Shown here one piece after another: positions 1-9,632 of a DNA stretch of 9,632 nucleotides. Every line of letters begins with the position of its first letter. Within the stretch, counting starts at the first letter, position 1. The notes under the pieces were generated by a model. That model did no database searches, was not told where the DNA came from, and saw only the letters and a list, made by a program, of their open reading frames with translations. Where the stretch lies: positions 1 to 9,632 of the forward strand of contig MHXC01000019.1 in assembly GCA_001824325.1 (NCBI GenBank), written 5' to 3'. The position numbers and the translations under genes were made by a program. This stretch comes from Parcubacteria group bacterium RIFCSPHIGHO2_01_FULL_47_10b (GTDB taxonomy: Bacteria; Patescibacteriota; Minisyncoccia; 2-01-FULL-47-10).

Positions 1-579
1 TTCAATGATCCCGACGAGCTCGCCTGTGGTGCGTATTTTGTTACGCCCGCCTTTTCGGGCTTGCACAATTGCTCGCGCGATTCTCCGACTGGCGCTCGTT
101 CGCTCCTCTCCGAATGTTGCAAAAATATGAAATAACTCTTCTTCATTCCACGTATTGATAATATCTCCGGCGGTTTCGCTCGTTTCTTTCGGGTTGTATC
201 GCATATCGAGCGGTTCATCTTTTCGGAAACTAAACCCCTTACCGCTTTCATCGACGTGCCAACTTGAGTACCCAAGGTCGAACACAATACCGTCGTACGT
301 GTGCTCATCTGTCGCCGTTGCCACCTCGCTCAACTGCTCATAGCTAGATGTAACAACCTTGACCCGATCGCCGTAGCTACGCAATGCGAGTTTCGCCTGT
401 CTGGCAACCTCGGGGTCCCGCTCGATACCCAGTACCGATGTACCCTTCGCTGTATCCAAAATGCCGCGTGTATGACCGCCGAATCCAAGCGTGGCATCGA
501 TATATCGACCACGCGCTCGAACCGACAATCCATCAATGACTTCTTGCAAAAGAACTGGTGTATGAATAATTTCGCTCAT
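1..579 (-). CDS. rsmH: 16S rRNA (cytosine(1402)-N4)-methyltransferase RsmH (MraW), 3' part missing
   Basis: This gene encodes the S-adenosylmethionine-dependent enzyme that N4-methylates C1402 of 16S rRNA in the ribosome decoding site. The visible 193 residues show the family's N-terminal HTPVLLQEVI (6-15), the SAM-binding DATLGFGGHTRGIL (28-41), the acidic GIERDP (51-56), the DLGYSS motif (101-106, usually DLGVSS) and the GFSFRKDEPLDMRY block (115-128). It is also followed by a family-typical NEEEL (145-149). Family members are about 300 residues long, so roughly a third lies beyond the left edge; the frame stays open to base 1. The ATG at 579 is chosen because HTPVLL normally lies within the first ten residues. 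It begins 25 nt after the mraZ stop on the same strand, the standard dcw order, and is probably co-transcribed with mraZ. No Shine-Dalgarno sequence precedes it. Identification is firm. Confidence 0.95.
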   Translation of the reverse strand, partial: MSEIIHTPVLLQEVIDGLSVRARGRYIDATLGFGGHTRGILDTAKGTSVLGIERDPEVARQAKLALRSYGDRVKVVTSSYEQLSEVATATDEHTYDGIVFDLGYSSWHVDESGKGFSFRKDEPLDMRYNPKETSETAGDIINTWNEEELFHIFATFGEERTSASRRIARAIVQARKGGRNKIRTTGELVGIIE

Positions 580-604: not shown

Positions 605-1036
605 TTAAATCTCTAACTCGCCCAAATGCTCCGTAATCGTATCAGTTGCCCGCTCTGTCTTATTCTTGTATTTCTCCCAATTTTCGGTATTCCAAATTTC
701 AACGCGGTTGAATAACCCTGCCACTGTCACTTCCTTGCTTAACGTCCCATACGTTCGCAAATAATCGGGAATCAAAATGCGCCCTTGCTTATCAATGTCT
801 ACGTCCATTGCACCTGCGAGCATGAGTCGTGCAAACGCCCGCGCATCTGCCCTGCTTAACGGTAGTGCTGCGAGCTTCGTTGCCAATATCTGCCATTCTT
901 TTTTCGTGTATATAAAAAGACACGAGTCCAAGCCACGTGTCACCACAGCGCCTTCCTTTAATGCCGCGCGGAACTTGACTGGTATAGCCAGCCGCCCTTT
1001 TGCGTCGATTTTGTGTGAAAACTCGCCAATAAACAT
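605..1036 (-). CDS. mraZ: Transcriptional regulator MraZ
   Basis: MraZ is an AbrB-like DNA-binding protein that forms ring-shaped oligomers and controls the dcw cluster, including its own gene. The 143-residue product has the two tandem family motifs, DAKGRLAIP at 11-19 and DKQGRILIP at 82-90, each in a swapped-hairpin half, and has the normal family length. The start at 1036 gives the usual MFIGEFSHKIDAKGR beginning. No Shine-Dalgarno sequence lies upstream (the last bases before the ATG are GCACGTTTCT). It is the first gene of the unit and rsmH follows after 25 nt. About 48 bp upstream begins a run of five TGG repeats at 10-bp spacing, the known binding layout for this protein, so negative autoregulation is likely. 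Identification is firm; the regulatory role is inferred from the family and the site. Confidence 0.96.
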   Translation of the reverse strand: MFIGEFSHKIDAKGRLAIPVKFRAALKEGAVVTRGLDSCLFIYTKKEWQILATKLAALPLSRADARAFARLMLAGAMDVDIDKQGRILIPDYLRTYGTLSKEVTVAGLFNRVEIWNTENWEKYKNKTERATDTITEHLGELEI

Positions 1037-1263: not shown

Positions 1264-3510
1264 TTACGCTGCGAGCATTGCGCGTGTCATTATAAGATGA
1301 GATCCCTTTCGAAGCTTGTCCTCGAGCACCATTTTCGCCAAAACGCTCTCAACCATATCTTGGATAACTCGCTGTAACTCTCGGGCGCCATATTCCGGTG
1401 TATAGCCGCGCTCAACCACTGCGTCAATAACGTCATCAGCAAATTCAACAGTGGCATCGTGCTCATCTAATATACGCGTCGCCGCGGCATCTAGATGCAT
1501 CCGCGCAATCATGTGTAACTGCGTCTTCTCTAATGGCTGGAATAATACCACTTCGTCAAAACGGTTCAAAAACTCGGGTGAAAATAGGTGTTCGTGCACT
1601 ATATGCTCCATGATACGCTGCTTAATCGCTGCACTATCGAATTGCTCCCGTTGATCACCACCTTGTACCGTATCATGTATCAATTCAGCCCCTGCATTTG
1701 ATGTCGCAATAATAATTGTATGTCGGAAATCAACGATGTCTTGTCGTGGGTTGATCAGTCGGCCTTCGTCTAGAATTTGCAAAAACAAGTCCCGTACTTC
1801 TTTGCTCGATTTCTCGATTTCATCAAGTAATAACAAGCAAAATGGATTCTCTCGGACTGCATTGGAAAGCGCCCCGCTCGGTTCGTCCCGTGTACCGATA
1901 AGCTGCTGCACTGCGCCGGGACCGCCATACTCCGTCATATTCATATATATGAACGCACCGTCACGTTTGTAATAATGCTTTGCAAGCGCCTTTGCAACCG
2001 ATGTTTTTCCTACGCCCGTAGGTCCAATAAACAAAAAATTGCCAATCGTATGGGCGTGCGAAGAAAGCGCTGCCTGTCGCCGTCGCAATGCATTTGCGAT
2101 CGCGGTGATCGCCACTCCTTGCCCCACAACATCTTCTTTCATTAACTTTTCCAGGTTCAATAATGTGTCTCGCACTGCCTTGTCCCCTTCCCCGATAGCC
2201 ACACCGAATCGTTCCGACAGAAACTGCTCTATATGTGATTTGGTTATTATATTTGTTTCGCCATCACGCACTGGTTTTGTTTGCAGCCAACTTACCAGTT
2301 GATCAATTAGCGTAATAACTTTCTGTGGTCGTTTGCCCTGACTTATATATTGATCTGCAAGCGTTACCAGCGCGCGCACCGATTGGTAGCTAAAGTAGAC
2401 CATATCCTCTGATCGCCGCTCAATATCGTCAATAATATCAAACAAAATAACCATGGTTTCTTCGGGCGTGGGCTCTGCAATTTGAAGCACGACAAATGAG
2501 TCATGTAACTGCTTATCCCGGGCGATAACGTCTTGCAACCCTTCGGGCGTCGTAAGGGCGATGAGTTGCAGCCGCTGTGACCGAATAAAGGGAATGATGA
2601 TTTCGGCAATCGACATTGTAGACAAACCATTTTTCACTTGCACAAACTCGTGCATATTTTCAATAACAAGTGCGATATTGCCAGCGCGCTCTGCCTCAGC
2701 GAATACAGCCCCTACTCGATCACGTAGTTGTCCCTGATTCGTGATACCTGCGAGTAATCGCTCCATATTAAGCACCATAACGCGTCGCACGTTAAGTCCG
2801 CGACTCGCAATACCTCGTTCGATTAGCCGCGTGAGCGCAAATATAAGCGCCCGCTTTCCCGTCCCCGACTCCCCTACTACCAGCGCGTTATTAAACCCTG
2901 ACTGCGTTAATATGCCTTGTAGCTGTTTTAACATCTGCTTATGCGCAGACAAATGAAAATGTGAACGCTTGGTGTCATAGACCGCAGCTGCTGGTTGGGC
3001 AAACTCATCAAGTAACGGCGTGTAGCCGCTTAACGAGCTATATCCGAGGGGTTTTTCCCGTGAAAAACGCATCAAAAAACCCTCTTTATGCTTTTCATCT
3101 TCCAAATGCCACCAGCGAGAAATCAACTGCAAGTCACGGTACTCGATATGCGCATCGTCGCATAATGTATGAAACCCTGACTCAAGTTGATACAACGCAA
3201 CCACGAGGTCATGCTCGCTAAAATTATGCCATTTTTGTTCTCGTGCCGCAGCTTCTGCCGCTTGGATCACCTGCTTTCGATGATCACGGAACAACGGCGT
3301 GAGATCAATGGTAGCAAGATCGCTTTCAGTGAGCCCGATTCTACGCACCATCCAGGCAATTATCGGATTGCCCCATACCCGCTTCGGGTCGCGAAACAAT
3401 GCCACAACTGCGCGCACCCGACGAGTGTGCTTGAGCTCAACAAAAATATATATAAGCACGAGCACAATCCACCCAATGATTGCGATAACGATCGGCATGT
3501 ACTCATTCAT
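1264..3510 (-). CDS. Membrane-anchored Clp-type double AAA+ ATPase (ClpC/ClpB-like) with degenerate first ATPase module
   Basis: The 748-residue protein starts with one transmembrane helix (about 6-24), then a single Clp-N-like repeat (about 70-125). AAA module 1 (about 190-350) has Walker A GESGTGK (213-219) but Arg in place of the usual Thr at 220. Its Walker B reads LVIEN (281-285) instead of a DE pair, and the arginine-finger region reads QLHDSF (334-339). Module 2 (about 455-740) is well kept: Walker A GPTGVGKT (496-503), Walker B LLLLDE (559-564), sensor 1 TSN (603-605), arginine finger FLNRF (647-651) and sensor 2 GAR (708-710). Where ClpB/ClpC have a GYVG pore loop after the LVG motif, this protein has a shorter segment, LIGTRDEPSG (537-546). 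No IGF/VGF-type ClpP-docking tripeptide is seen. It follows the small membrane protein gene by 15 nt, so the two probably work together at the membrane. It is ClpC/ClpB-related by descent; a protein-remodelling role is inferred and ClpP partnership is doubtful. Confidence 0.88.
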   Translation of the reverse strand: MNEYMPIVIAIIGWIVLVLIYIFVELKHTRRVRAVVALFRDPKRVWGNPIIAWMVRRIGLTESDLATIDLTPLFRDHRKQVIQAAEAAAREQKWHNFSEHDLVVALYQLESGFHTLCDDAHIEYRDLQLISRWWHLEDEKHKEGFLMRFSREKPLGYSSLSGYTPLLDEFAQPAAAVYDTKRSHFHLSAHKQMLKQLQGILTQSGFNNALVVGESGTGKRALIFALTRLIERGIASRGLNVRRVMVLNMERLLAGITNQGQLRDRVGAVFAEAERAGNIALVIENMHEFVQVKNGLSTMSIAEIIIPFIRSQRLQLIALTTPEGLQDVIARDKQLHDSFVVLQIAEPTPEETMVILFDIIDDIERRSEDMVYFSYQSVRALVTLADQYISQGKRPQKVITLIDQLVSWLQTKPVRDGETNIITKSHIEQFLSERFGVAIGEGDKAVRDTLLNLEKLMKEDVVGQGVAITAIANALRRRQAALSSHAHTIGNFLFIGPTGVGKTSVAKALAKHYYKRDGAFIYMNMTEYGGPGAVQQLIGTRDEPSGALSNAVRENPFCLLLLDEIEKSSKEVRDLFLQILDEGRLINPRQDIVDFRHTIIIATSNAGAELIHDTVQGGDQREQFDSAAIKQRIMEHIVHEHLFSPEFLNRFDEVVLFQPLEKTQLHMIARMHLDAAATRILDEHDATVEFADDVIDAVVERGYTPEYGARELQRVIQDMVESVLAKMVLEDKLRKGSHLIMTRAMLAA

Positions 3511-3525
3511 GATGCAAGAGTAGGT

Positions 3526-3918
3526 TCATGAAAATAACGGGCTCGCTAATAGCCAAACACCGTACAACGTCAGAGCAAACAGCCCAATCGGCAAGACGGC
3601 CCATGCAATCGACACAACTGCGCCTATCAGCCCAATAAACACCACCGAAATAAGCCCCCATACAATAATCATGGTTCGGATAACCATCCCCACCAACCGC
3701 GACACAACATTGAATCGAAAGCTATCGACAAATAACTTGATACTGAACCCATGCTGCTGATATCCCACCTGCATCTGCTTCCATGGCTTAAAAAAAGTGC
3801 CAAAATGCCACGAAATCGCAAAAAACCGCAACGTCAACCGCGTAAAATGCCACCAAAACAGAAACGTTGTGGGCACCGACTCCTTGTAGAACCATACAAA
3901 AAATCCGAGCATATACAT
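3526..3918 (-). CDS. Small aromatic-rich membrane protein of unknown function, paired with the Clp-like ATPase
   Basis: I do not recognise a named family. The 130-residue product is rich in Phe and Trp. The first 45 residues contain a hydrophobic segment (about 3-34) broken by charged residues. The middle (about 44-72) is more polar, with KPWKQMQVGYQQHGF. Two strong hydrophobic stretches follow at about 74-98 and 100-127, probably two transmembrane helices joined by a tight turn. The ATG at 3918 is used; a second ATG two codons later is possible. No Shine-Dalgarno sequence is seen. The stop codon is 15 nt before the ATG of the Clp-like gene on the same strand, so the two form a unit. The likely job is a membrane partner or anchor for that ATPase. 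That is inferred from context only. Confidence 0.75.
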   Translation of the reverse strand: MYMLGFFVWFYKESVPTTFLFWWHFTRLTLRFFAISWHFGTFFKPWKQMQVGYQQHGFSIKLFVDSFRFNVVSRLVGMVIRTMIIVWGLISVVFIGLIGAVVSIAWAVLPIGLFALTLYGVWLLASPLFS

Positions 3919-4343: not shown

Positions 4344-4958
4344 TCAACTTTCAGCAAAGCCAAGTTTCTCGGCAGCAAAACCAAAGCCTGTTTTTTTCTC
4401 CAAAAATTCAGAATACTCGAGGTCCTTCAGTGCACAAACATATTCTTCAAGAAATTTCTTTGGAAGAAACTCCTCAGTATCCTGCAGAATGACTTTGAAG
4501 TACTCCATTTTTTTATCCTTTGGTGCGCTGAAGCGATCCCACACAAGAGCACCCTCATCTTTTAATACCTCGACCAGTGAGCGCATATTTGCCAAGGCAT
4601 CCGCGCTTTTAATGAAGTAGGCGTCTTGATTTGTTCGCAGGCGAAAAATATGTTCTGTCTTCCGTTCTGCCCAATCAGCCATTGATTTATCTTCGGTAAG
4701 TAATCCTACAAGATTTTTTACCTCACTCCCAAACTCTTCCTCTAGGTCTTCAACTGGATAGTTACAATCCTCCACGGTATCGTGAAGAATGGCAGCAGCA
4801 ACAAGTCCAGGGCTGTTTGTGTATCGTGCTACGATAATACCAACTTCTAGGGGGTGAACGACATAAGGGATTTTCCCATTGCCTTTTCGGACCTGTCCTG
4901 TATGCAGTTCAATTGCTTTCGTCAGTGCTTTTTCGACGAGATTATATGTGTTGTTCAT
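4344..4958 (-). CDS. HD-domain phosphohydrolase, (p)ppGpp hydrolase-like (small alarmone hydrolase family)
   Basis: From the ATG at 4958 the product has 204 residues. It shows the RelA/SpoT-type HD hydrolase pattern: His19 followed by GQVRKG (21-26), IPYVVHP with His35, the HD pair His59-Asp60 in AAILHDTVED (55-64), and KSADALANM (117-125) with Asp120 and Asn124. In the family these are metal ligands and catalytic residues. The usual RLHNM is ALANM here. Small alarmone hydrolases of this size remove the 3'-pyrophosphate of (p)ppGpp, but other nucleotide substrates are possible; no synthetase domain is present. The frame is open up to an ATG at 5108 with a good Shine-Dalgarno sequence, which would add 50 residues. 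I prefer 4958 because the family begins there and the extra stretch is occupied by a long terminator-like hairpin. No Shine-Dalgarno sequence precedes 4958. Confidence 0.85.
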   Translation of the reverse strand: MNNTYNLVEKALTKAIELHTGQVRKGNGKIPYVVHPLEVGIIVARYTNSPGLVAAAILHDTVEDCNYPVEDLEEEFGSEVKNLVGLLTEDKSMADWAERKTEHIFRLRTNQDAYFIKSADALANMRSLVEVLKDEGALVWDRFSAPKDKKMEYFKVILQDTEEFLPKKFLEEYVCALKDLEYSEFLEKKTGFGFAAEKLGFAES

Positions 4959-5021
4959 GGATTCTATAGTTATTTTTATTATTGTGCAGTTATCCACCTT
5001 TGTCTTCGTTCGACCTTCCCG

Positions 5022-5087
5022 AAAACAAAAAGCGGCTAAGAGATGTGATCCAGTCTGATGACTGAATGAAATCTCCCAACCGCTTTT
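5022..5087 (-). terminator. Long terminator-like hairpin in the leader of the HD gene
   Basis: In minus-strand RNA, bases 5087-5071 pair with 5044-5028 in an uninterrupted 17-bp stem with three G-U pairs. The 26-nt loop contains a smaller hairpin (CAGTC-ATCA-GACTG). The 3' side ends in GCCGCTTTTTGTTTTC, a fair T tract. It ends about 64 nt before the preferred HD start codon, so it could end transcription inside the leader. It may be an attenuator of the HD gene or the end of a short RNA made from the promoter at 5215-5242. No plus-strand gene precedes it. Confidence 0.6.
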
Positions 5088-5105
5088 GCGATTAGTCATT
5101 TGTTT

Positions 5106-5133
5106 CATCTGGCTCTCCGCAGATTTCCCAGAT
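5106..5133 (-). promoter_or_regulatory. Hairpin enclosing a ribosome binding site and start codon
   Basis: On the minus strand ATCTGG (5133-5128) can pair with CCAGAT (5112-5107). The loop holds GGAGA, a Shine-Dalgarno sequence 6 nt before the ATG at 5108-5106, and the stem takes in the first two bases of that ATG. The ATG opens a frame that runs through the terminator-like hairpin and into the HD gene. This arrangement would suit control of leader translation, but no known riboswitch class is recognised. Confidence 0.35.
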
Positions 5134-5261: not shown

Positions 5262-5281
5262 AAAAAAGCTCAAAACGCTTT
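5262..5281 (-). terminator. Weak terminator overlapping the end of the endonuclease gene
   Basis: AAAGC (5281-5277) can pair with GCTTT (5269-5265) around a 7-nt loop that includes the endonuclease stop codon, and the T run extends to 5262. The stem is only 5 bp, so efficiency is doubtful. Confidence 0.3.
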
Positions 5282-5797
5282 GGACACTGGCAGTCCTAAT
5301 CTCTGAAGCGGTAAGTAATTAAAATAATACTGACACCCCACCGATATTACATAATCAAGTGTGTCCTTATATTCAGGTTTAGAAAACCAATCATTTAAAA
5401 TATAAATGTATTCCACTTCGATATTTAGCGGTGCCATTAATTTCTTATATTGTTTTTTCTTAAAATCGCAAGTTTGTAATTTTTCATCTACTGATCCGGC
5501 AACCTCCTGAAACTTCATCTCTATGATAAAAAGAGTATTGTTTACAATGACGTACAAAGCTTCGTCCGGCAACAGGCGTTTCGAAATAAGCTGCTTCCAG
5601 TTAATCCCTCGCGAATCCAAAAACTTATATAGGCCATACTTTTTGTAACTATAGGCAACTTCCCTGCCCTCATAATAAATGGCGTTGCCGCTTATCGAGT
5701 AACCGCTGGTCTTATCGAGGATAGATAGAATATCCCGTCCGTTTTCAAAATTAAGTCCAGTAATTGTACTCCCTCCACCTTTTCCGTATTTTTTCAT
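5270..5797 (-). CDS. Type II restriction endonuclease, PD-(D/E)XK fold
   Basis: The 175-residue product has a PD-(D/E)XK nuclease signature: Pro77-Asp78 in LLPDEALYVIVNN, then Glu93-Met94-Lys95 in TLFIIEMKF, followed by QEVAGSVDEKLQTC (97-110), a pattern I associate with short type II endonucleases. The N-terminus KYGKGGGSTITGLNFE (3-18) with Glu18 also fits this group. It starts 4 nt after the methyltransferase stop codon, the usual coupling of a modification gene and its nuclease, and would cut unmethylated DNA at the site protected by that enzyme. The recognition sequence cannot be read from the protein. No Shine-Dalgarno sequence is seen, so translation probably depends on re-initiation after the upstream gene. 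The gene is visibly richer in A+T than mraZ or the Clp-like gene, as expected for transfer. Family level is secure by context; exact subtype is unknown. Confidence 0.8.
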   Translation of the reverse strand: MKKYGKGGGSTITGLNFENGRDILSILDKTSGYSISGNAIYYEGREVAYSYKKYGLYKFLDSRGINWKQLISKRLLPDEALYVIVNNTLFIIEMKFQEVAGSVDEKLQTCDFKKKQYKKLMAPLNIEVEYIYILNDWFSKPEYKDTLDYVISVGCQYYFNYLPLQRLGLPVSKAF

Positions 5798-5801
5798 AAT
5801 A

Positions 5802-6614
5802 CTAAGTTACAAGTAATTTATTTTTCATATTACGATCCAGTGACTCAAATCGTTTTATCGAAACGTTTAAAAATTTCTTGTCTATATCAACTCCTATAAA
5901 ATTTCTACCAAAGAAGTAAGATACAATCCCTGTGGTCGAACTACCGGCAAATGGATCAACGACTAAATCGCCTTTATTTGTCGACGCTAACACTATACGT
6001 TTCAATAAATCTTCTGGTTTTTGGGTAGGATGTTTTCCAAATTTTTTTTCGCCCGCCTTCGGCGTGCCGATAGCCCAAACTGAACGCATTTGGGTGTTCG
6101 GTTTTTTTATAAAATCCTCTAGCCACTTTCCCTCTTTCATTAGCTTGTAATTGAAAGTATGCTTGGCTTTTTTTTCTTTTCGCGCCCAAATAAGGGTTTC
6201 GTGACTAGCGGTGAAATAGCGACAACTTAAATTCGGCGATGCATTTGGTTTAAACCACGCGACATCGTTCAAAATATGAAATCCCGAAACTTGAAGCGCA
6301 AAGCCACATTGATAAATAGAGTGGTATGTCCCACTGACCCATAAAGTGCCTTCCGGCTTTAACGCACGCCTGACAGCTTGTATCCAATCAAGGTGAAATT
6401 GAAAATCTTTTTTTAACCCATTACTCTTATCCCACTGACCTTTATTCACACTGACGCGTCGCCCAGCATGAACTGTAAAGCCACCATTGGAAAGAAGGTA
6501 GGGGGGATCAGCAAACACCATATCAACCGAATTCTCCGGCATTCCGGCGAGAATATCCATGCAATTTGCGTGGTATAATCTAAATCTTTGTTTTTTGTAA
6601 TACGGTTTTTGCAT
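5802..6614 (-). CDS. DNA adenine-N6 methyltransferase, beta class (type II modification enzyme)
   Basis: The 270-residue enzyme transfers a methyl group from S-adenosylmethionine to N6 of adenine. The catalytic motif IV DPPY (36-39) comes before the SAM-binding motif I DPFAGSSTTG (220-229), with the target-recognition region between them; this order defines the beta class. Motif X GKHPTQKP (193-200) sits just before motif I. The stretch FADPPYLLSNGG (34-45) with VSVNKGQWDK (54-63) closely resembles the single-strand GATC methyltransferases of the DpnIIB (DpnA)/MboI systems. The insert around KKPNTQMRSVW (170-180) is not one I recall in DpnIIB. The specificity is therefore open. It is followed by the endonuclease after 4 nt. 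The start at 6614 gives MQKPYYKK, matching the relative's KPYYNK. Only a weak AAGGG precedes the ATG. Confidence 0.9.
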   Translation of the reverse strand: MQKPYYKKQRFRLYHANCMDILAGMPENSVDMVFADPPYLLSNGGFTVHAGRRVSVNKGQWDKSNGLKKDFQFHLDWIQAVRRALKPEGTLWVSGTYHSIYQCGFALQVSGFHILNDVAWFKPNASPNLSCRYFTASHETLIWARKEKKAKHTFNYKLMKEGKWLEDFIKKPNTQMRSVWAIGTPKAGEKKFGKHPTQKPEDLLKRIVLASTNKGDLVVDPFAGSSTTGIVSYFFGRNFIGVDIDKKFLNVSIKRFESLDRNMKNKLLVT

Positions 6615-6736: not shown

Positions 6737-6810
6737 TGGGCGACTCAGGATTCGAACCTGAGACCTTTCGAATGTGAATCGAACGCTCTAACCAACTGAG
6801 CTAGTCGCCC
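6737..6810 (-). tRNA. tRNA-Val (anticodon CAC)
   Basis: The minus strand folds into a complete cloverleaf. It has a 7-bp acceptor stem GGGCGAC/GTCGCCC with A as discriminator, a D arm GCTC-GAGC, a 5-bp anticodon stem TTCGA/TCGAA around the loop TTCACAT, a 5-nt variable region and a T arm TCAGG/CCTGA with TTCGAAT. The anticodon CAC reads the valine codon GUG. The 3' CCA is not encoded, so it must be added by a nucleotidyltransferase. It is 122 bp upstream of the methyltransferase ATG on the same strand. Confidence 0.95.
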
Positions 6811-7590: not shown

Positions 7591-7638
7591 GTTTCATTTT
7601 TTTGAAACGTCAATATCAACAGGGTTTCCACCGTTTCA
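7591..7638. promoter_or_regulatory. Repeated GTTTC/GAAAC half-sites in the divergent spacer
   Basis: GTTTCA (7591-7596) and TGAAAC (7603-7608) form a perfect inverted repeat around six T. Two more half-sites follow, GTTTCC (7624-7629) and GTTTCA (7633-7638), the last ending two bases before the -35 of the plus-strand promoter. Such an array between a winged-helix gene and its divergent neighbour is a reasonable operator candidate. Binding by that protein is inference. Confidence 0.4.
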
Positions 7639-7640
7639 AT

Positions 7641-7668
7641 TTGCGAAAAAAAACAACTATAGTATACT
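7641..7668 (+). promoter_or_regulatory. Promoter of the PP2C-like membrane protein gene
   Basis: TTGCGA (7641-7646) and TATACT (7663-7668) are spaced by 16 bp. Transcription would begin near 7675, only about five bases before the ATG at 7680, so the mRNA would be nearly leaderless. This fits the absence of a Shine-Dalgarno sequence. Confidence 0.5.
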
Positions 7669-7679
7669 TGGGTTGTCCT

Positions 7680-9632
7680 ATGAAAGCTGAAATCGAGGTT
7701 TCCAAACTCCTTATAGAAGGCCGTAACCGAGTCGATATTTTTATGTATCGACCGGAGAATGTTGCGTGTGAACACCTGGGCAATCTGTTTATAATCGGCG
7801 AAATCGAGTCGATCGGCCGAAAACAAAAAGACGATTTTTTTGTATTGAACTCCATTGCTTCTATCGTCAAAAAAACATATTACCATACTATCTCCGGCAC
7901 CCCGGAAGACAACCTCGAACTTGCGCTCAAACAAGTCAACAATCAAATCGATCAGCTTACCAGCCGCGAGCTCTCCAGTATTCGAGAAACATTTCACTTT
8001 ATTGTAGCCGCAGTCGCCGACCGGGCGATATATTTTTCAAAAACCGGCGACAGCGAGATTGTTCTCGTTCGCGGTTCTAATTGGCTAAACATTGGCCACG
8101 CAGAAGCTGACAACGACGTCCGCCAGCGATATAAATTCTTTTCCGATATTATTAGCGGCCAACTCAACGACCGCGACATACTCCTATTCTTCACTCCCCG
8201 ATTGGCGCCGTTTCTGTCACAAGAGTCGATGCGCAATAAATTGGCGAGTCGGCAATTCGACACTGAGCATGCCTCCATACAGAAATACCTACTCACGGTT
8301 GACCCCGTAACCAGTCAGGCGTGCGTCCAATTACAAATTCACTTAAACGGCGAGGGCAGTGAGCACATCGGCAAGACTATACTTGATCTGGATGCAGAGC
8401 CAGAGCCAGAGCCAGAGCCCGAGACCGAATTGGAGCCGCAACAGAAGCCAAAACAAACCCCAGAACCAAAGCCATCCCTGAAAAAAATAGGAAGGAAGTC
8501 CGAGGAGGTGCCAGAAGTAATCGAAGCAACTGAACCATCAGAAGGTTCAATCGAACATTTCATGCAACAAAAACCGCCTGCGCGATCGCCTTCTACCCAC
8601 AAAGATCGAGGCGCAGCAGTTAAAGCTGCTTTTGCATCAGTGGCGCGAAAGGTTCGAGAAAAGTTTCCAATCCTTATGTCGTCACTCGGTAAGCGCCTGT
8701 CCCTTGGCTTTACCCAAGCTCTTAAAACCATTAAAGATAAATTCCAAAGTGCAAAACTCTCACGACCCGACGTTCAAACGATTACTGGGCAACTCCATCC
8801 AGCCGGCATGAGACTGCGCGAAGGAACTCGCCAGGTATCACAGATATTCGGCTCAGTGAAAAGAAATGCTTCTTCGGGTATCCGCATTGTCGGCTCAAGG
8901 TTGTCGCAATTGATGCAACGAATTATCGATCGAATAAAAACGATACGAAACGCCAGAACCACCGGCACGACTCCAATGTCAAGACCAACCCCTATGCCGC
9001 ACATTAGTATTTCGCGCAGCAGTGGAGCTCCATCAAAAACCCGTTTCTATGCACTAGTCGGGCTATTCATCCTGGCCATCATCATGCTCGCAGGCGCCCT
9101 TATCTATCAACAACAACTCAAAGGCCAAATACAAACAAACCTCGTTAAACAGCAGGGCAATCAAGCCAAGCTCGACCAGCTTTTGACGGATAAACGAACC
9201 AAAACCATCCGACTCACCGACGATGACATCGCCATTCGATTTACCACCCTTTCACTCAATAAACCATTTACGATCTACACTGGCTTTATTCGCACAGACG
9301 CCTCTCCGCGACTTATACTTGTCGGAGATGAAAGCGTCTATTTCGCTGATGAAACAACTGATATTGACGGCATTTTCATCCGTTATAGCGCCGACCTGAA
9401 ACCCACAACCGGTGCCGCGCTCCTGACTACAACGAACCAACTCCTCTTGTATTCCGTCGACTCGCCCAATACTTTCGTATTTATGAACCTCAAGACTGGC
9501 GATATTACTACCGACAATATCGAACTCGATGCGCCCATTCAAGCCATTGCTGAATTCAATAATCGCGTCTATGCGTTGACCCAGAATCAGATATATCGCT
9601 TTGGCGTAAGTACGGGTGCTCCAGCGCCTATC
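7680..9632 (+). CDS. PP2C-like (catalytic residues lost) transmembrane protein, 3' part missing
   Basis: The frame is open from the ATG at 7680 to the window end (651 codons) and has no stop. Residues 1 to about 215 look like a PP2C/PPM phosphatase fold: an FFVLNSIASIV segment where DGMGGH is expected, a long helix NLELALKQVNNQIDQL, then FHFIVAAVADRAIYFSKTGDSEIVLVR with GDS at 123-125 as in HVGDSR. The metal-binding aspartates of the first motif are absent, so it is probably a pseudophosphatase. Then come a Glu-Pro repeat (240-248), a charged linker, a basic helix-rich part (about 300-440), one transmembrane helix (about 457-476), a short Gln-rich coil, and from about 500 a beta-rich region with repeating strands (ILVGDESVYFAD, LLLYSVD, VYALTQNQIYRF) that suggests a beta-propeller. 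The N-terminus should be cytoplasmic and the C-terminus outside. Role unknown; a membrane signalling or scaffold protein is plausible. Confidence 0.75.
   Translation, partial: MKAEIEVSKLLIEGRNRVDIFMYRPENVACEHLGNLFIIGEIESIGRKQKDDFFVLNSIASIVKKTYYHTISGTPEDNLELALKQVNNQIDQLTSRELSSIRETFHFIVAAVADRAIYFSKTGDSEIVLVRGSNWLNIGHAEADNDVRQRYKFFSDIISGQLNDRDILLFFTPRLAPFLSQESMRNKLASRQFDTEHASIQKYLLTVDPVTSQACVQLQIHLNGEGSEHIGKTILDLDAEPEPEPEPETELEPQQKPKQTPEPKPSLKKIGRKSEEVPEVIEATEPSEGSIEHFMQQKPPARSPSTHKDRGAAVKAAFASVARKVREKFPILMSSLGKRLSLGFTQALKTIKDKFQSAKLSRPDVQTITGQLHPAGMRLREGTRQVSQIFGSVKRNASSGIRIVGSRLSQLMQRIIDRIKTIRNARTTGTTPMSRPTPMPHISISRSSGAPSKTRFYALVGLFILAIIMLAGALIYQQQLKGQIQTNLVKQQGNQAKLDQLLTDKRTKTIRLTDDDIAIRFTTLSLNKPFTIYTGFIRTDASPRLILVGDESVYFADETTDIDGIFIRYSADLKPTTGAALLTTTNQLLLYSVDSPNTFVFMNLKTGDITTDNIELDAPIQAIAEFNNRVYALTQNQIYRFGVSTGAPAPI
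8397..8420 (+). repeat. Hexanucleotide GAGCCA repeat coding for Glu-Pro
   Basis: Four consecutive hexamers (three GAGCCA and one GAGCCC) encode Glu-Pro four times in the linker after the PP2C-like domain. Slippage would change the linker in whole Glu-Pro units without breaking the frame, so length variation between strains is possible. Confidence 0.75.

Follow-up and report, generated by a model that had tools for sequence, protein, structure and literature searches.

We examined a Clp-like gene and its surroundings in a stretch of 9,632 nucleotides (hereafter the window; contig MHXC01000019.1) from Parcubacteria group bacterium RIFCSPHIGHO2_01_FULL_47_10b, a member of the Patescibacteria. 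At 1264..3510 on the minus strand, an open reading frame (ORF) with an ATG start encodes a Clp/Hsp100-type AAA+ ATPase of 748 amino acids, as judged from the ORF list, Pfam, family alignments, AlphaFold2 and Foldseek. Its parts are a predicted membrane helix, a helical N-domain, a catalytically degenerate first AAA+ module (D1) and a complete second one (D2). Fifteen base pairs upstream, at 3526..3918 on the same strand, lies a gene for a predicted membrane protein of 130 amino acids, which we call the partner. An initial annotation of the window had described the ORF on this strand as a Clp-like ATPase with a dead D1, a catalytically intact D2, a shortened pore loop and no ClpP-docking tripeptide, and our analysis confirms this observation overall. 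The partner was absent from that annotation, and because it stands immediately upstream of the ATPase we treat the two genes as one system; this gene is our main new result and an essential addition to the earlier reading.

The affiliation of the ATPase with class I of the Clp/Hsp100 proteins, which have two AAA+ domains with AAA_2 and D2-small, is given by Pfam, by the alignments to ClpA and ClpB and by the fold. Pfam matches AAA_2 at residues 488-654 and ClpB_D2-small at 660-739, and D1 only weakly, while the NCBIfam Clp equivalog models span the protein with scores far under their cut-offs (347 of 993 bits for ClpA, 345 of 1232 bits for ClpB). In the phmmer alignment to ClpB, the window ATPase has a gap of five residues at GYVG, passes over the ClpB middle-domain stretch and makes the D1 changes visible. 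The AlphaFold2 model, built on an alignment of 63 sequences, has a mean predicted local distance difference test score (pLDDT) of 90.5 and a predicted template modelling score (pTM) of 0.84, and Foldseek places ClpC and ClpB at the top of its matches (expect value E down to 2e-45; 21-31% identity among the 50 matches listed). The model begins with a long helix (residues 5-40), and a hydropathy scan predicts a single hydrophobic membrane anchor at residues 6-24 (3439..3495, minus strand), in keeping with the membrane tether that had been proposed for this protein.

Of 7997 candidates scored in a protein database search, 1876 were relatives; within the best 120, two are 53-55% identical to the window ATPase and the others 28-42%, the higher values of that range covering part of the protein. 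We aligned 237 proteins (the ORFs of fetched loci and database proteins P0002-P0120) and divided them by whether the D2 loop contains GY[VIA]G, which left 161 without it and 76 with it. One of the latter, P0068 (GYAG), was moved to the family because its D1 is degenerate and the tree groups it with the family, giving 162 family members and 75 canonical controls. The family set comprises 52 locus ORFs (L001-L030, 14 named loci and L114-L121) and 110 database proteins (P0002-P0120 minus nine canonical ones, with P0068 included), and retains any near-duplicates between these two sources; the controls include two ordinary Clp ATPases from the window's own genome (L125 and L126). A second sample, here called the Saccharibacterial-type set, is made up of the best 120 proteins (P0241-P0360) from a search with a Saccharibacterial member. 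In a FastTree phylogeny of 506 D1 and D2 columns, from which the pore-loop, Walker and finger columns had been removed, the 161 proteins and P0068 stand together on one side with a local support of 1.0. A membrane helix is predicted ahead of D1 in 151/157 family proteins versus 1/74 canonical ones (counting those with at least 120 amino acids ahead of D1), and within the first 200 residues in 119/120 of the Saccharibacterial-type set. Among 145 sampled genomes of the phylum, an alignment search at 530 bits or more finds the family ATPase in at least 88, a lower bound in that family fragments under 530 bits may exist. An 89th genome at this threshold (G133) was dropped, as its protein is a GYVG-type one of 551 amino acids with no membrane helix; a similar protein of G146 scored under 530 bits. 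The loci of these two (L123 and L124) carry short two-domain Clp ATPases of 551-554 amino acids with a GYVG-type loop and neither N-domain nor membrane helix, beside a gene that resembles, by eye, a type IV coupling ATPase.

The loss of the full D1 catalytic set is a property of the whole family. In the window ATPase (all motifs on the minus strand), the D1 Walker A reads GESGTGKR (residues 213-220; 2851..2874) with Arg in place of Thr, and the arginine-finger position (residues 337-338; 2497..2502) reads DS where all 75 canonical proteins have RR, so that two of the losses attributed to this module hold as described. The third, that of the Walker B acids, holds in part: in ALVIEN (residues 280-285; 2656..2673) Asn stands at the position of the catalytic Glu, and that of the Asp is taken by Glu and hence still acidic. 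Not one of the 162 family members keeps GK[TS], DE and RR together, compared with 73/75 canonical proteins. Taken singly, GK[TS] is kept in 35/162 versus 74/75, the Walker B DE in 13/162 versus 74/75, the RR pair in 7/162 versus 75/75 and an aromatic residue in D1 pore loop 1 in 18/162 versus 71/75. The 120 Saccharibacterial-type proteins have Arg for the Walker A Lys in 113 cases, Glu at the Walker B Glu position in one and the RR pair in none. The relative constraint on the two modules is reversed as well, with a median entropy of 2.57 bits for D1 and 1.76 for D2 in the family, against 0.84 and 1.17 in the canonical proteins.

The catalytic set of D2, by contrast, is intact, as had been proposed. 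Its Walker A (GPTGVGKT, residues 496-503; 2002..2025), Walker B (LLLLDE, residues 559-564; 1819..1836) and arginine finger (R650; 1561..1563), all on the minus strand, are complete, and the seven catalytic residues that we checked (K502, T503, D563, E564, N605, R650 and R710) are all present. The same seven are kept in 161/161 family members and P0068, and in 120/120 of the Saccharibacterial-type set.

It is the D2 pore loop 1 that departs from the canonical state. In the window ATPase it is short and free of aromatics (TRDEPSGA, residues 540-547; 1870..1893, minus strand): the segment reads GTRDEPSGAL, with eight residues between G539 and L548 versus 13 in 75/75 canonical proteins, which bears out the shortening to TRDEPSG noticed earlier, and in the AlphaFold2 model residues 539-546 form a confidently placed short loop that connects helices 533-538 and 547-554. 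Only two aromatics, F595 and F289, lie within the four pore-loop segments of this protein, neither of them at a pore-loop-1 tip; F595, in the V-D-F of the pore-loop-2 segment, is also F in 74/75 canonical proteins, and the position of F289 is L, I or V in most of them. A GYVG-type loop occurs in 1/162 family members (P0068, with GYAG; L114 has GQAG) versus 75/75 canonical ones, in which G, Y and G never vary and the third residue is V or I, and the loop is shorter than 13 residues in 152/162. The earlier question of whether homologues with an intact GYVG would make this copy an exception is thereby answered: the window copy is the rule. As its two closest homologues share the loop type (GTRDEPSG and GSRDNPGG) and 161/162 members are without GYVG in their loop, we do not take the change for chance or a local error, and a private mutation or an assembly error is ruled out.

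What replaces GYVG is loosely constrained. The most frequent loop length is nine residues, shared by 76 family members; in these, positions 2-7 have entropies of 2.7-3.3 bits, against the D2 median of 1.76, and tighter constraint is confined to the Gly at position 8 (0.64 bits) and to the first residue (1.56). Three members (L119, L120 and L121, from genomes G087, G104 and G172) have two residues left in the aligned loop; they carry a fused partner-like segment, and their genomes have no ClpP match. In the Saccharibacterial-type set, the entropy of columns 540-546 is 0.5-1.9 bits, compared with 0.30 for the D2 median, and neither an aromatic in the aligned loop (0/120) nor GYVG (0/120) is found. 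The D2 loop of this set is acidic, with a net charge of -3 or -4 in 98/120.

The relation to ClpP was approached from the motif and from the genomes. The ClpP-docking tripeptide [ILVMFY]G[FLYIM] is absent from D2 of the window ATPase, as the initial annotation had stated, and from all 162 family members (0/162 versus 62/75 canonical), which rules out a ClpP-docking ATPase. A genome devoid of ClpP is also ruled out: the check that had been suggested finds clpP in the window's own genome (G000, C18:27385-27915), together with the two ordinary Clp ATPases, L125 and L126, which have GYIG loops and LGF/IGF tripeptides. Across the phylum, 117/145 genomes have a ClpP match. There is none in 17 of the at least 88 genomes with the module, and 14 of these 17 are at least 90% complete; one of them (G059) is a single contig scored as 100% complete. 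In two genomes of the same class (G013 and G041, 98 and 100% complete), the family ATPase is the sole Clp-type match and ClpP has no match.

The partner belongs to no family that we could name. Pfam and NCBIfam give no match to the window protein; Pfam on 34 partner members gives 14 families, each in two members at most (best E 0.0012, one member to DUF4064); and Foldseek on the partner model returns two matches (best E 5.8) and no solved fold that fits. The AlphaFold2 model is all-helical (mean pLDDT 91.3) with no AAA+ fold, and hydropathy predicts two membrane helices. The relatives, of about 110-130 amino acids, share an F-x-P-W-like loop, followed by a conserved Arg that leads to a hydrophobic hairpin. 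In the window protein the motif is F-x-P-W-K (residues 43-47; 3778..3792, minus strand), with a Trp that varies in relatives and a Pro that is nearly invariant. Arg81 (3676..3678, minus strand) is invariant in alignments of 34 and 45 members, and P45, R74, G77 and P110 are nearly invariant in the former. Orientation in the membrane generally follows the positive-inside rule, by which we predict that the F-x-P-W loop lies on the cytoplasmic side.

The linkage of the two genes is nearly without exception. The partner model matches 79/145 phylum genomes, all of them among the at least 88 that are positive for the ATPase, and a search with this model found no partner in the sampled phylum genomes lacking the ATPase. 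In 76/79 the pair is adjacent on the same strand of one contig, or fused. The three exceptions have a truncated ATPase match, located on a different contig from the partner. Nine family genomes have no match to the partner model, and by eye five of them have fusions and three have upstream partner-like segments, the ninth (G176) having its ATPase at a contig end. At the level of loci, a hidden Markov model (HMM) of the partner finds it at 104/106 testable family loci at E<1 (84 upstream and 20 fused) and at 101/106 at E<0.001 (83 and 18), and at 0/63 testable canonical Clp loci at E<1. The two family loci left over at E<1 are, by elimination, L121, with a fused partner by eye, and L179, with a partner region partly masked by N. 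The 106 derive from 111 family loci, of which three at contig ends (L030, L034 and L122) and two unparsed ones were set aside, namely L010, also at a contig end, and L012, which has the partner upstream with an ORF in between; G002 is represented twice among the 111 (L009 and L132), and further overlap of genomes is possible. Of 64 canonical loci, one has fewer than 120 bases upstream, so that 63 are testable. Three Saccharibacterial genomes have one partner each, and none was found in the five genomes searched outside the Patescibacteria (0/5).

Beyond the pair, the window ATPase is followed downstream by mraZ, a gene from the context of the division/cell-wall cluster (605..1036, minus strand; Pfam MraZ, E 2e-40), and then rsmH (mraW; 1..579, minus strand; Pfam Methyltransf_5, E 5e-55), which is incomplete at the window edge. 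Of 74 neighbourhoods, 13 contain a MraZ-type gene and 14 an RsmH-type one, and only the ATPase-partner pair is constant; apart from mraZ and rsmH of the window, the neighbour clusters were named by eye. An ATPase followed by mraZ is found in the window (ATPase-mraZ-rsmH), L132 and L036, and the order mraZ-rsmH-short gene-partner-ATPase in L163, L166, L157, L164 and L039. Outside the 74, mraZ-like and rsmH-like genes lie downstream, by eye, in L003, L005, L007 and L009. The neighbourhood thus hints weakly at the envelope or division, and this link may be incidental, since about 60 of the 74 neighbourhoods have neither gene. Elsewhere in the window are an HD-domain protein (HD_4; 4344-5108, minus strand); a DNA N6/N4 methyltransferase (PF01555, E 1e-54) followed by a sub-threshold match to a PD-(D/E)XK nuclease (20.5 bits, cut-off 23.7), at 5270-6614 on the minus strand and probably a small restriction-modification pair; a tRNA-Val (6737-6810, minus strand); and a long protein containing a stretch of Glu/Pro-rich repeats (7602-9632, plus strand), cut by the edge and lacking a confident Pfam match. 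Within the ATPase family, 11/162 members (L027, L028, L029, L039, L042, L115, P0019, P0068, P0072, P0075 and P0102) versus 0/75 canonical proteins have a CxxCxGxG motif among their N-terminal 130 residues, which we take to be akin to the zinc domain of DnaJ; these N-termini could possibly be a client- or Hsp70-linked module.

How, then, would such a protein work? A grip that is free to vary, beside an ATPase site that is held strictly constant, leads us to infer that this motor no longer threads, and this is our main argument. With the grip loop and the D1 catalytic residues lost and a predicted membrane protein almost always encoded next to it or fused to it, the ATPase likely reshapes membrane complexes rather than pulling substrates through a pore. 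The explanation that we favour, and hold to be somewhat better than evenly balanced, is that it supplies the ATPase of a Patescibacterial module of two genes and that, with a predicted anchor in the membrane, it remodels or gates membrane complexes together with the partner, neither threading substrates nor feeding ClpP. In this model, the ATPase would assemble into a ring beneath the membrane in which only D2 acts as a motor and D1 is a passive spacer. As D2 goes through its ATP cycle, the ring would change shape on the side of D1, the N-domain and the membrane helix; the conserved, positively charged F-x-P-W loop and the invariant Arg of the partner, both predicted to be cytoplasmic, might take up this motion by contact, and the partner may then relay it to a membrane-embedded client complex. 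The suggestion of a remodelling or signalling ATPase at the membrane that does not thread had pointed in a supported direction and is borne out in part: a membrane-tethered ATPase that probably does not thread is the best-supported reading, and what the suggestion missed was the partner gene. A bolder version, which we put forward tentatively and think doubtful in its full extent, would see here a Clp/Hsp100 machine that is common to the phylum, is independent of ClpP and has given up threading entirely: an anchored ring in which one motor is dead and the other live, with a small, obligate F-x-P-W membrane partner, a counterpart of torsins in its logic, and with a role in envelope building or division of these ultrasmall cells.

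Several points weigh against the favoured explanation. To begin with the data, the loop statistic is partly circular, because GYVG was used for the split between family and canonical proteins; the results for D1, the membrane helix, ClpP, the partner and the tree are free of this circularity. In a tree of D2 only (276 columns), support for the whole clade is 0.55, and 0.98 without five Saccharibacteria-type sequences. The partner HMM was built from 34 fetched loci, whose matches are thus by construction, and the AlphaFold2 models are of single chains, in which hexamer and channel are not visible. As for the grip, the D2 loop has F, Y or W in 44/162 family members, 27 of them at the second loop position, and none in 118/162, against an aromatic in 75/75 canonical proteins (these counts omit the last loop residue). 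Whether other aromatics fill the place of GYVG thus has a divided answer, negative for the D2 loop of the window ATPase and positive for these 44 relatives, some of which could still grip, weakly. The loops of G013 and G041, despite the lack of ClpP and of another Clp ATPase there, have 13 residues with a Phe (L019 and L021). Finally, substrate might be contacted by the hydrophobic residue, in many cases Val, Ile or Leu, that precedes the following helix.

The strongest alternative, which we consider unlikely, is that the protein is still a threading unfoldase or an extractor of membrane proteins, whose D2 pulls with a short loop, aromatic in some lineages, and delivers to the cytoplasm or to a protease other than ClpP. 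Such a motor would fit with the catalytic residues of D2 kept in all members, with a pore-loop-2 segment (V-D-F) common to the canonical proteins, with the aromatic-loop members just described and with the top Foldseek matches, ClpC and ClpB, which thread. It fits less well with a pore loop 1 that is non-aromatic in both D1 and D2 of the window ATPase and of most members, or with a loop tip that varies and is down to two residues in L119-L121. Loss of the aromatic in one ring can be tolerated, as shown by yeast Cdc48, which keeps the residue in D2 (accessible text of PMC5511170). The window ATPase resembles Cdc48/p97 in having lost a pore aromatic from a ring, and differs in that it has none in either.

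Another alternative looks to the envelope and gives the ATPase a single client machine, for example the division or cell-wall apparatus, of which the partner would be a subunit and which the ATPase would assemble or gate. We regard this as rather improbable. Its logic would be that of Bcs1 and MoxR-type AAA+ proteins, which are membrane-linked or assembly proteins thought to act without processive threading; these belong to other AAA+ clades than the Clp-type ATPase, and the likeness rests on such general logic. MraZ-type and RsmH-type genes recur in differing gene orders, in the 13 and 14 neighbourhoods and the four further loci given above, which speaks for it; against it, the remaining neighbourhoods, about 60, have neither gene and only the pair is constant. 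Its client would likewise be a supposed one, and the proposal amounts to a special case of the two-gene remodelling module. Least of all do we expect a regulatory subunit that caps or tunes ordinary Clp ATPases or ClpP in mixed rings, for although the window's own genome has clpP and two such ATPases to tune, G013 and G041 have the module with neither ClpP nor a second Clp-type match, 17 of the at least 88 module genomes have no ClpP match, and every D2 active-site residue checked is invariant, as in a self-sufficient ATPase.

The remodelling module can be set beside better known systems. ClpC, ClpA and ClpB share their fold with the window ATPase, as well as the two AAA+ domains and, in D2, AAA_2 and D2-small; the family differs from them in having lost the D1 catalytic set, GYVG and the ClpP tripeptide, and in having gained a membrane helix and a dedicated partner gene. 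By analogy, the closest working parallel is offered by the torsins, which have one AAA+ domain. The accessible text of PMC5425593 describes these as Clp/Hsp100-like AAA+ proteins of the endoplasmic reticulum and perinuclear space that have a membrane-associated hydrophobic domain, lack aromatic pore loops and depend on a cofactor, which supplies the missing arginine finger. TorsinA with LAP1/LULL1 thus shares with our protein, in which the dedicated partner might stand in for the cofactor, a Clp-type AAA+ fold, an association with the membrane (predicted in our case) and the absence of an aromatic pore loop (the latter in the window ATPase and in the 118 family members). The window ATPase differs in its two AAA+ domains, its own D2 finger (R650, invariant) and a small helical partner with no AAA+ fold. 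A torsin proper is ruled out by the Pfam Torsin model (PF06309), which scores 17.4 bits on the window ATPase, under the cut-off of 27, and by the presence of the arginine finger. The protein may therefore work like a torsin without being one, given its own finger, its two AAA+ domains and an unrelated partner.

A literature search by title and start of abstract, with most subscription journals outside its reach, gave no description of this ATPase family, and searches for terms in the accessible main texts of PMC10633639, PMC6744442, PMC11665869 and PMC10768705 turned up no statement about it. In the last of these, as far as its accessible text goes, a 'predicted clp protease' (TM7x_03020), which may or may not belong to the family, is reported to be higher in the recovery phase of a co-culture of TM7x and its host.

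In conclusion, our results bear on how such genes are read and on what they could teach. Some relatives are annotated in their source databases as 'ATP-dependent Clp protease ATP-binding subunit', and such labels are likely misleading for Patescibacterial proteins of this clade, which is without the threading hallmark and the ClpP-docking motif. The job of the module is probably important, since it is found in at least 88 of 145 sampled genomes of the phylum, most of which are near one megabase or smaller. The analysis also defines a two-gene module that, if cultured strains carry it, could be removed in Patescibacteria with genetic tools, such as Saccharibacteria (accessible text of PMC10633639). 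If the proposed mechanism is true, the module would represent a natural test of how a Clp/Hsp100 ring acts with no pore loops, which is the question that torsins raise in eukaryotes.

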